From NCBI GenBank assembly GCA_027382625.1, contig JAJKFJ010022164.1:1-64000 (forward strand): 64,000 nt of DNA, written 5' to 3'. Both the position numbers and the translations under genes were made by a program. This document shows, one piece after another, positions 161-3,552 of this stretch. The notes beneath the pieces were generated by a model. It searched no databases and was not told where the DNA came from. It saw only the letters and a list, made by a program, of their open reading frames with translations. This DNA is from Tetmemena sp. SeJ-2015. Lineage: Eukaryota > Ciliophora > Spirotrichea > Sporadotrichida > Oxytrichidae. Numbering within the stretch: the first letter of the stretch is position 1; the number at the start of each line of letters is the position of its first letter.

Positions 161-2770
161 ATGAGAATCTTCTCTACAGCTACTCTCCTCGTAAATTGAT
201 TTATTCTTTTTCATATTCACTATTTTATGAAATGATTTTATCTTTATCGATAGTGGCCTACGCTGACGAAACTTGCAGATTTGCTCCGAGTTTCAATAAA
301 GCTAATATACTTGCCGATGCTCAAGCTAGGCAATAATTCTTAGACAAATTTAAAAATAGTATTGTCCTTCTTTCTTTATTTGATGTATATTAAATTAAAG
401 ATAATAAAAAATCCTTTTATCTAATAAGTGTTATTTAGACAAGTTCATAAGTCAAGAAGCTAAGTTCTTCAGAGGAATTGGAACTGACTCTACAGGTCTC
501 ATTTTTATTATTCACCTAATCCTAAATTAATATTGACGACAGAACTGGAATGCCTCTTGACGTCACTCAATTCCAAAAGGCGGATTAGTTAAGTGAAGCT
601 CTCCATATTGCTCTACTTGCTAAAGCCATCAGCAATGACTTAGATTTATATTTAATCTTTAACTTTAATGAGCCAAAAGCACTTTTGATTTACCAGTAGG
701 CTGAGGCTTATGAACTTGCTGAAAAGAAAATAGCTGCCTACGAATGGATTCTGAAAGGCGAATAAGACGTCTAAGATATCCAATCCAGAATCCTTGGTAA
801 TGAACAAAAGGGAGCTCTCTTTTGGTCTGTTTTCTCATTATCTGAGGCTCTTGAGCAAGCTAACTTTTTAGACCTTGCTTAAAGATACAGGTAATTTTAA
901 CAGAGATTACTATCAAATACGTCATCAGAAGAGAATAACAGTGAACTCATGAATCTCGCACAGTACTATTCTGGAAAAGATAAAACTAAATCACTCTCTG
1001 TCAGCAAGGACTTCGATGAAGTGTAATATCTCTTCTTTCCTTTCCTCGATGATTCTCAAATCAAGCAATCACTAGAGAAACAAGAGTAGATTAAAACGAA
1101 TCAAGCAGCTTCGAGAGCAGCTGCAGGCTTATTTAAATCAGAAAAGGGTTCTGACTAATTTACTGTTCAATTAATTAAAGATTGAAAAGTCGAGCTATCT
1201 CTTTCTTGGAAAAGTAAGGCCAGAGCAGTTCTTATGAAGAATGCTTAACTTCTTGCAGAGTGAATATTTATCTATGGAACAGCAACTGCTGCTTTCTAAA
1301 TAGAGGGTGCTTCAAGTACTAATGGAAGAGGACCTAGTATTTGGGACGATTTTTGCAAAATCAAGGGAAAGATTAACAACGGCGATGATGGCTCTGTTGC
1401 TGATGATTTTTATCACAAGTACCAATAAGACATCAAAATGATAAGTTAATCAAGAGGGAGTTGACTTTTACTCTAAATAAACACGGCATCTAGCCTTGGG
1501 TTACTCTTTAAATTCAAGATAAGACTGCTACAGGGGCTTGGCTAGGAACTAAGATAATTAAGAACATTATAATTTTTTTATTCTAATATAATTGACCAGT
1601 TTAATGACTACGCTGATTTCTGCTTCAAGACTTTTGGACCAAAGGTTACTAAATGGCTGACTTTCAATGAGCCATGGACCTTCACTTGGCTTGGATACGG
1701 AACTGGAGGAAACGCCCCAGGAAGAAGTAAACGATTGCGATACTGTTGGCGGTGGTGGTAATTCTAAGTTTTGCACACTGTGATTCTTTGCCACGGCACA
1801 GCTGTGAAGACTTACAGAGACAAGTACCAGTCAGCCTAGAAAGGTATGATTGGTTGGACTTTAAACACCGGCTATGGTGAGCCTTGGAACGCGACAAATC
1901 CAGACGACTTGCTTGCCGTTGACATTAACACCCAGTTCAACTTTGCTTGGTATATGGATCCTATCCACTTTGGAAAGTACCCTGACGTCATGGTTTAGCA
2001 AGTAGGAGATAGACTTCCTAAGTTCACCGACGATTAAGTCAATCTTATCAAAGGAAGCTATGACTTTATTGGATTAAACCACTACACGTCATCATACAAC
2101 AAAAAGAACAACAGAACTGGCAACGACTGGCAAAGCGACATTATGGTAGACTCATCCTCTACCAATTAATTTTAATGCAAGCGGCCATGTAATCGGCCCT
2201 AGAGCTGAGTCTGGCTGGCTTTTCGTTTACCCAGAAGGGCTCAGAGGTCTTCTTAACTGGATCGATAAGAGATATAGCTCTCCTTCTTTGAAGCAAAAGA
2301 TATGCGTGTTTGAAAACGGAGTGAGCGTTCCAAATGAGAACAACCTATCTATAGTAGATGCCGTCCACGATTAATTCAGAGTGGAATACTACCAAGGCTA
2401 TATTCAAAAAATGAAGGAAGCTATCACCCTCGACGGAGTTAATGTGATTGCCTACTTTGCTTGGTCTCTCATGGACAACTTCGAGTGGGATGATGGATAT
2501 AGTGTCAGATTTGGAATTCAAATTACAAGGACAACCAAACTCGCTATCTTAAAATTAATTCCTTTACAAGAATAAAATATGTTGATTGGAATGACTTATG
2601 TCGACTACAAGGACAACCTTAGTGATGAAATGTATCTTAAAGACTCCGCATTTTGGTATTCATCATTCATCGCCACTCAGAATATCTAAGTTCAAGTTCC
2701 AAAGATGGAGCTCAAGGACAGAAAGACTCAATTCATAGCAAAGAACAAATTCTTAGCTTCTGAACAGTGA
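161..2770 (+). CDS. GH1 beta-glucosidase-like gene, copy A, main MDS cluster (scrambled)
   Basis: Encodes a secreted protein: a signal peptide from ATG 161, about 380 residues of unrecognised N-terminal region, then a glycoside hydrolase family 1 barrel. GH1 hallmarks are visible: the acid/base motif TFNEPW near 1660-1680, the nucleophile motif VFENG near 2310, and the C-terminal [10 protein letters not shown]. Family members hydrolyse beta-glucosidic bonds with a retaining mechanism; the substrate here cannot be told. The frame is not continuous: several coding pieces are missing from this cluster and sit at 2840-3552. Between 1248 and 1787 this cluster holds alternate MDSs that must be joined with pieces of the other cluster through shared pointers of 4-14 bp. 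Simple IESs also interrupt it. TGA at 2768-2770 ends the protein. In-frame TGA near 1183 and a missing base in the second cluster leave open whether this copy is functional. Confidence 0.8.
191..252 (+). other. IES in GH1-A signal-peptide region
   Basis: Excision between the two GT dinucleotides (191 and 253) joins CTC CTC to GTG GCC and restores a signal peptide running into AYADETCRF, matching copy B. A GT-AG intron ending at 253 would leave the wrong frame. The 2-bp pointer is weak evidence alone. Confidence 0.5.
340..434 (+). other. IES with 8-bp pointer TTAGACAA
   Basis: TTAGACAA occurs at 340-347 and 435-442. Removing 95 bp with one copy restores [14 protein letters not shown], matching [14 protein letters not shown] of copy B, which has no insert here. 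The insert is strongly AT-rich. Confidence 0.9.
501..531 (+). other. IES, 31 bp, pointer ATT
   Basis: Removal between ATT at 501 and ATT at 532 restores STGLIDDRTGM. Copy B has a much larger insert at the equivalent place (about 3890-4480) before DERTGV, so both paralogues are interrupted here. Confidence 0.7.
1248..1264 (+). other. 17-bp micro-MDS of GH1-A
   Basis: This piece consists of pointer ACTTCTTG (also at 3184-3191), a single base C, and pointer AGAGTGAA (also at 3192-3199). Joining it between the two abutting pieces of the second cluster gives EDFTSCRVKDFPEDF in frame. Without it the second cluster reads into TGA. Copy B has an equivalent 22-bp piece at 5181-5202. Confidence 0.85.
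1554..1587 (+). other. IES, 34 bp, pointer ATAATT
   Basis: ATAATT is found at 1554-1559 and 1588-1593. Excision restores [15 protein letters not shown] of the GH1 barrel. Confidence 0.85.
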
Positions 2771-2839
2771 GAAACATTTAAGAAATTAATTTGCAAAATT
2801 TGAAATAGTGATCTAGTTTAAATTTAGACTAATTTTCTT

Positions 2840-3552
2840 CAGGAGATTTGGTCAGCCCAGCTGCTATTTCCAGTTTGTTCCTAGTTAATGAAACTGTAGC
2901 TTCTGCTTGGCTTCTTAACACTCTCTAAGGTGGAGCTGTTCAGACTTAATATGGTGCTGTCGATGCGCTGCACTTCACTGGCTCATAAGTCGAAAATTCT
3001 GTAAGAGCAGTTCTGGGAGTTCTAGGAGGCGTCAGTAATTTGGTCAAAAATAGTTTGTTGAGAGAGAATAAACTCGACTAACTCATGAGTGCCCTTACTA
3101 AATAGCCAAAGTCTCTATCAGTTGAGAGTTTGGGCGAGTTTGAGTTACCTTCGAATGAATTCTCCTCTCCTCGTGAAGACTTCACTTCTTGAGAGTGAAG
3201 GACTTCCCCGAAGACTTTGCATTTGGAACAGAACTATCAAAATGATTGCAAATCTTGGATTGAAGCACTTCCGTATGTCTCTCTCTTGGTCTCGTATTCT
3301 TCCCAAGGGTACCATAGACCAAGTCAATCTTATGAGTTGACTTCTACAATAGCGTGCTTGAACTCTTATCGCTCACGACATAATAAAATGGTTACTCTTT
3401 TCCATTGGGACCTCCCATCTGCTCTTCAAGATAAGTAATACAATTTGTTTATACGCTACAGGTAGATGTACCAATGGAAAGTATGGAGTAAACGATTAAA
3501 TAAAGGAAAATTCTGGCACTGAGCCTTATTTAGTTACTCACACTGTGATTCT
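2840..3552 (+). CDS. GH1 gene copy A, second MDS cluster (interleaved pieces)
   Basis: Holds the MDSs missing from the main cluster, in the same orientation and about 0.1 kb beyond its stop codon. The first part (to 3191) encodes the end of the N-terminal region (FLVNETVASAW onward). The rest supplies GH1 pieces: KDFPEDFAFGT, GLKHFRMSLSWSRILP, the FHWDLPSALQDK strand, and GRCTNGKYGVND. Each piece starts and ends with a repeat shared with the main cluster, for example ATCAAAATGAT at 3236/1432 and CACACTGTGATTCT at 3539/1774. Spacers between pieces are 0-23 bp. The left limit of this cluster and its join to the main cluster near 1230 could not be resolved. Relative to copy B a base is missing near 3359-3363, which shifts the frame. 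Confidence 0.8.

Follow-up and report, generated by a model that had tools for sequence, protein, structure and literature searches.

Interleaved coding pieces in a tandem pair of GH1 glucosidase-like genes of Tetmemena sp. SeJ-2015: a predicted odd-even scrambled germline gene with a one-base patch

Two tandem genes of one family, copy A at 161-3552 and copy B at 3672-7829, lie at the start of the 64,000-nt stretch of Tetmemena sp. SeJ-2015 DNA analysed here (contig JAJKFJ010022164.1, C3029:1-64000, from an assembly of 146 Mb in 5213 contigs; hereafter the window), and each consists of a main cluster of coding pieces (M) followed by a second cluster (S). Copy A is very probably an odd-even scrambled germline gene, whose pieces alternate between M and S and are predicted from the sequence to be joined through 16 M/S pointers, plus three more at the 3' end, into a gene for a glucosidase-like protein of family GH1. 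The coding pieces stand in permuted germline order, with odd and even pieces in separate clusters, and the pointer that ends one piece also begins the next at 19 of 19 scrambled joins in the window copy A, in a second contig (L004, see below), and also in copy B. In hypotrichs, such pieces (macronuclear-destined segments, MDSs) are cut free of internal eliminated sequences (IESs) and reordered during somatic development with maternal template RNA as guide, and one copy of each pointer is kept. A preliminary description of this DNA had called copy A a scrambled GH1 gene with interleaved odd and even MDSs; the observation is genuine and larger than first described, and it is supported by the GH1 product and by the recurrence of the layout in the sister gene and in the second contig.

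The two clusters of copy A are on the same strand, and the 16 alternating joins run through M up to 1787 and through S from 2827 to 3552, whereas the 3-join weave, with piece order 1-3-2-4, occupies 2511-2641 at the 3' end. All 13 pointers named in the preliminary description are found in both clusters in the order given for them, and its estimate of at least 13 ordered joins is exceeded by six, counting those of the 3' weave. The alternation that it placed at 1248-1787 and 3184-3552 stands, but the weave begins further upstream, with GACTAATTT at 1153/2827, AAGTCGA at 1187/2987, and AGAGCAGTTCT at 1222/3004. Reading the main cluster as a continuous gene was rejected, as it lacks GH1 segments found only in S.

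Read in the predicted order, with all pieces on the forward strand, copy A begins with four MDSs separated by ordinary IESs: MDS 1 (150-192, ATG at 161; 2-nt pointer, boundary uncertain), MDS 2 (253-347; pointer TTAGACAA), MDS 3 (435-503; the following IES is placed by reading frame and its boundary is uncertain), and MDS 4 (532-641; 2-nt pointer, placed by frame). The next M piece (685-1161) ends in the scrambled pointer GACTAATTT and leads to S at 2827-2993, from which AAGTCGA leads back to M at 1187-1232 and AGAGCAGTTCT again to S at 3004-3191. ACTTCTTG then leads to a micro-MDS of 17 bp in M (1248-1264), in which the C at 1256 is the sole base outside the pointers, and AGAGTGAA returns to S at 3192-3231, which abuts the preceding S piece with a 0-nt spacer. 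TGGAACAG opens M 1275-1442, ATCAAAATGAT opens S 3236-3329, and AATC opens a second M micro-MDS of 20 bp (1448-1467, 6 nt between pointers), followed through GAGTTGACTT by S 3334-3377. The remaining alternation passes through CACG to a 28-bp M piece (1482-1509, 13 nt between pointers), GGTTACTCTTT to S 3390-3435, TTCAAGATAAG to the M block 1513-1721 with an ordinary IES inside (pointer ATAATT, 1554/1588), CAGG to S 3459-3497, AGTAAACGATT to M 1726-1765, AATTCT to the last S piece (3509-3552), and CACACTGTGATTCT to the 3' part of M (1774-2517), which contains a short ordinary IES (pointer AAT, 2164/2174) and ends in TTGGAAT. In the 3' weave, TTGGAAT, TACAAGGACAACC, and TATCTTAAA join this end to 2586-2618, then to 2524-2553, and finally to 2633-2770, which runs to the TGA stop. 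The short pointers AATC, CACG, CAGG, and AATTCT each recur in at least one of the searched stretches and were placed by order, reading frame, and homology, by which CAGG at 1531 and AATC at 3251 were ruled out as pointers. The ordinary IES joins number six in the window and eight in L004. Four boundaries, those with the pointers GT, ATT, TT, and AAT, do not count as independent evidence, because the reading frame guided their choice.

Translation follows table 6, in which TAA and TAG encode Gln and TGA is the stop codon. Joined in this way, copy A of the window is in frame apart from a 1-nt deletion near 3360 (3357-3362), within the S piece 3334-3377, and because of this deletion it is not one clean open reading frame (ORF); by eye, the main cluster holds no copy of the stretch 3357-3362 able to bridge it. 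Contig C1728 (L004) ends in a copy of window positions 1-4203, with 98.0% and 98.8% identity in two stretches, and probably represents the other haplotype. L004 carries the base deleted in the window, and its first scrambled pointer of copy A is 3 nt longer; here the joins yield one ORF of 897 residues that spans 27 joins (19 scrambled and eight ordinary) and closes with TGA. The preliminary claim of GH1 sequence across every junction is supported, although it is L004 that gives a full GH1 domain in one ORF, the joined window sequence being frame-broken near 3360. The joined L004 protein matches the Pfam GH1 profile (PF00232) in a single stretch covering profile positions 3-451 of 453, with an E value of 1.8e-153 and 511.7 bits against a curated cut-off of 22.6. 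For its last 535 residues, 193 solved sequences gave matches, and 52 of the best 60 of these did so in a single stretch, the others being double-domain or Klotho chains. TFNEPW and FENG, containing the acid/base (NEP) and nucleophile (ENG) motifs of GH1, occur in the joined proteins of both copies. Residues 380-897 of joined copy A share 69, 74, and 63% identity with the ciliate proteins P0023, P0038, and P0039, respectively. L004 also carries IES-like inserts of 16 and 29 nt at its positions 3309 and 3437 (window 2326 and 2438), flanked by GTT and TTAAT, which the window lacks; the difference reflects either polymorphism of IESs or an admixture of somatic sequence in the assembly.

The order of the pointers was assessed by the best collinear chain of exact matches of at least 7 nt between clusters, compared with 1000 dinucleotide shuffles. 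The chain between 1240-1790 and 3180-3555 scored 100 with 10 matches, and that of the wider core of copy A (1150-1790 against 2820-3555) scored 134 with 14 matches; none of the shuffles reached these scores, their maxima being 69 and 93. Assigned pointers of at least 7 nt (n=12) account for 119 of the 134, as the chains of both copies include some matches that are not pointers. For copy B the chain scored 117, again reached by 0 of 1000 shuffles (maximum 104), and with matches of at least 8 nt the scores were 120 against a shuffle maximum of 65 for copy A and 75 against 69 for copy B. Evidence independent of pointers came from tblastn with the related-ciliate protein P0023, successive parts of which align alternately to S and M of copy A: residues 297-380 to S, 352-472 to M, 405-417 to S, 468-520 to S, 497-506 to M, 515-547 to M, 521-535 to S, 544-741 to M, and 587-623 to S.

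Copy B repeats this layout on the same strand, with a main cluster at 3672-6883 (ATG at 3672; the N-terminal exon of the window has a TGA at 3783-3785), a second cluster at 7071-7829 with the same 16-join weave but other pointers, and a 3' weave at 6521-6761 with the pointers AGTGTTAGATTT, AAGGA, and CTTAAAGATT, the first two of which reach 3 and 1 nt further left. From 4487 to the stop, its core remains open across 24 joins, including 19 scrambled ones at the places where copy A has them. At 18 of 19 joins the pointer positions of the two copies overlap, and at the remaining one they abut; the pointer strings are identical at none of the 19. By eye, the TGA of copy B is absent from L004, and small differences between the contigs cluster at window 3776-3796. 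The 5' part of copy B contains an AT-rich insert of about 600 nt (3870-4480), for which no candidate IES boundary met the length filter. Joined copy B also lacks five residues of copy A in the GYIQKM region (window 6395-6435), owing either to a true deletion or to a scrambled piece not found.

The part outside the pointers of the 15 internal pieces of each copy was compared with the spacer that the piece replaces in the other cluster. For three short M pieces, the inner part and the facing spacer measure 1/0, 6/4, and 13/12 nt in copy A and 7/6, 12/10, and 15/14 nt in copy B. On the predicted joins, therefore, the short M pieces bridge S shortfalls of 1, 2, and 1 nt in copies A and B alike. 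At the first of these patches, S read straight runs into a TGA, whereas the 17-bp piece contributes one base (C 1256) with which S encodes EDFTSCRVKDFPEDF. The Cys-Arg completed by this base is invariant in five of five aligned sequences and is also present in the paralog C1 (see below), and L004 has the identical 17-bp piece and 0-nt spacer. A mere chance likeness of ACTTCTTG beside AGAGTGAA was considered and rejected, since S hits the TGA without the excursion into M but continues into the conserved TSCR with it. In L004, S from 3236 onwards encodes GH1 in three successive frames, broken at the second and third patches. The patch-1 pair of copy A, pointers included, aligns over 17 columns with one gap and no mismatch. 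Spacer length correlates with the length of the replaced piece (rho 0.58, p 0.024, 15 pairs) in each copy, although the sample is small, copies A and B are interdependent, and an ordinary IES is included in one length per copy. The frameshift of the window copy A and the one-base contribution of the 17-bp piece had both been absent from the preliminary description.

Between copy A (taken from L004) and copy B, the ratio of nonsynonymous to synonymous divergence (dN/dS) is 0.11 in the N-terminal part of S, 0.10 in the GH1 part of S, and 0.03 in the M core; thus, the scrambled parts of both clusters look constrained, the 5' part (considered below) much less so. Synonymous divergence (dS) is 2.62 in the M core but 0.38 in the GH1 part of S, a difference suggesting that the S clusters have recently undergone conversion with each other in the germline. 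Likewise, the S MDSs at 3200-3435 (7440-7680 in copy B) are 88-100% identical between the copies, and the M MDSs at 1283-1559 are 75-88% identical. The window and L004 differ by substitution at none of 332 positions in scrambled pointers, at 33 of 2527 in other MDS sequence, and at 12 of 532 in spacer and intergenic sequence (inserts not counted).

It could be argued that S, as a partial tandem duplicate, has decayed and goes unused, M alone being the gene or a pseudogene. S read straight is indeed frame-broken, and a tandem partial GH1 copy (C2) exists elsewhere in the genome, but M alone lacks large conserved GH1 stretches encoded only by S, such as FRMSLSWSRILP and HWDLP. Moreover, the two clusters complement each other and share a pointer at 16 of 16 boundaries, the low dN/dS of S between the copies points to constraint, and the layout is repeated in copy B, so we consider this explanation highly improbable. 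A scrambled but dead locus, in which copies A and B are both fossils, is less far-fetched, as the deletion near 3360, the TGA at 3783, and the dN/dS of the 5' main part would all fit it. It is nevertheless unlikely, given that L004 differs at both lesions and yields the 897-residue ORF for copy A, that the core of copy B is open over every scrambled join, and that dN/dS stays between 0.03 and 0.11 in both parts of S and in the M core. Slightly less likely than this is that copies A and B swap pieces in trans, so that the somatic products would be chimeras of M from one copy and S from the other. Such exchange would agree with the higher identity and lower dS of S than of M between the copies, but each copy has its own matching pointers, and germline gene conversion accounts equally well for the high identity of S.

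The remaining alternative concerns the origin of the layout rather than its existence. In the older stepwise model, as outlined in PMC9797194, such a layout expands as short repeats of IESs and MDSs recombine, and this deserves somewhat more weight than the explanations above, although we still regard it as the minor possibility. Most exchanged pairs are of very unequal length with no likeness evident by eye, and the inner short segments show no clear similarity, which speaks for this model. Against it, S of L004 from 3236 remains continuously GH1 across patches 2 and 3, merely out of frame, the patch-1 pair of copy A aligns with a single gap and no mismatch, and the lengths of spacers and replaced pieces correlate. 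The most likely origin would be tandem duplication of a gene stretch followed by complementary decay of both copies, of which the three very short M pieces that bridge the S shortfalls would be the clearest trace. The pieces of copy A would then be joined by the usual hypotrich route through the 16 M/S pointers and the three at the 3' end, resulting in one somatic gene for a GH1 glucosidase-like enzyme.

Several observations weigh against the odd-even reading of copy A or against parts of it. The evidence consists of germline contigs of this species and proteins of related ciliates. Neither copy is a clean gene on the window contig because of the deletion in copy A and the TGA in copy B, and allelic difference, pseudogenisation, or assembly error may each underlie these lesions, the status of L004 as the other haplotype being itself an inference. 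Order, frame, and homology served to place the short pointers (AATC, CACG, CAGG, and AATTCT) as well as most boundaries of ordinary IESs, so that these are not independent, nor are the pointers of copy B, which were located with knowledge of those of copy A. Assigned pointers of copy B of at least 7 nt total 103, just below the shuffle maximum of 104, so that the chain test alone is marginal for this copy. Seven of 19 tblastn rows for copy A, all below 22 bits and obtained with lax settings, fall off the alternating pattern. For the 5' main part (before 1162), dN/dS reaches 0.53, and synonymous change is saturated in two of the six classes. With regard to the patches, similarity of the inner segments was matched or exceeded by 2000, 171, 1547, 389, and 65 of 2000 shuffles for five very short segments, and two in three shortfalls would by chance be of a length not divisible by 3.

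A search of the assembly with P0023 gave at least 34 matches, on C3029, C1728, C3109, and C1832, and no continuous version of copy A or B was among them; the same protein detected no further family members in window 7841-64000 (E 0.01). On C3109 (L026 1378-6235) lies the paralog C1, followed by the tandem partial GH1 copy C2, whose start coincides by eye with the position of an IES in C1. C1 and C2 belong to the same family as copies A and B, with an N-terminal part and GH1, but differ from them in that the matched parts are collinear; residues 203-310 of P0023 have no match there, and scrambling is possible in that stretch. C1 and C2 may represent a present-day duplication stage, and they are a candidate for alternative processing. 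In a tree of 13 rows, C1 and C2 are sisters (100/99), and A, B, and P0023 with P0038 form a group (98/98) in which the order of A and B is not settled. P0023 and P0038 are eukprot entries, probably from Oxytricha trifallax. These two and P0039 of Stylonychia lemnae are GH1 proteins like joined copy A and are represented by protein records; PF26157 is listed for P0023 and P0038 in addition to GH1, whereas the Pfam scan of joined copy A detected GH1 alone. At C1832:155500-159500 (L027) there is a further, distant GH1-like gene that shares about 40% identity with P0023.

On balance, copy A is very probably a true odd-even scrambled gene, a kind already known, whose one-base patch is unusually easy to read. 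Like the hypotrich odd-even genes described in PMC9797194 and PMC5940158, it has two clusters, pointers in the usual range of 2-20 bp, and local paralogy, and copies A and B resemble the odd-even loci of PMC9797194 in keeping junction positions while pointer sequences diverge. It differs by degree in its 17-bp MDS with one base outside the pointers facing a 0-nt spacer, and in the presence of two weaves in one gene in a layout repeated in tandem. The shortest spacers of copy A (0, 3, 4, and 5 nt) are also below the 10 bp to which IESs can shorten according to PMC5996456. In a literature search of incomplete coverage, we found no account of a one-base or very short MDS, although absence from print is not claimed, and a search combining beta-glucosidase, scrambling, and Oxytricha found no paper.

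According to the duplication-decay ratchet (Gao et al. 2015, as summarised in PMC9797194 and PMC10901763), a spacer lying between pieces n-1 and n+1 goes back to a copy of piece n. In the account favoured in PMC9797194, whenever one duplicate acquires a mutation, the other has to be drawn on and the number of joins grows; exchanged pieces at odd-even loci resemble spacers there, strongly in Euplotes woodruffi and more weakly in Oxytricha and Tetmemena. The bridged pattern of copies A and B fits this ratchet, with short segments that are too short for similarity testing, and the short pieces may have come into use as repairs of frameshifts. Compared with the general ratchet, single steps may be legible here as the 1-, 2-, and 1-nt shortfalls bridged by short pieces. 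We lean, with some reservation, towards regarding the locus as a readable record of the ratchet, in which germline frameshifts of these sizes in one duplicate were each patched at the DNA level by a short piece of the other, the smallest being the 17-bp piece, and the patches outlived the split of A and B.

In summary, odd-even scrambling is already known, and what this locus would add is resolution: three individually readable steps, one of which amounts to a single base, in a pair of sister genes. Since the steps are individually readable, the ratchet would be directly testable at this locus, both through the presence of one base in somatic DNA and through the way in which the machinery handles a 17-bp piece facing a 0-nt spacer.

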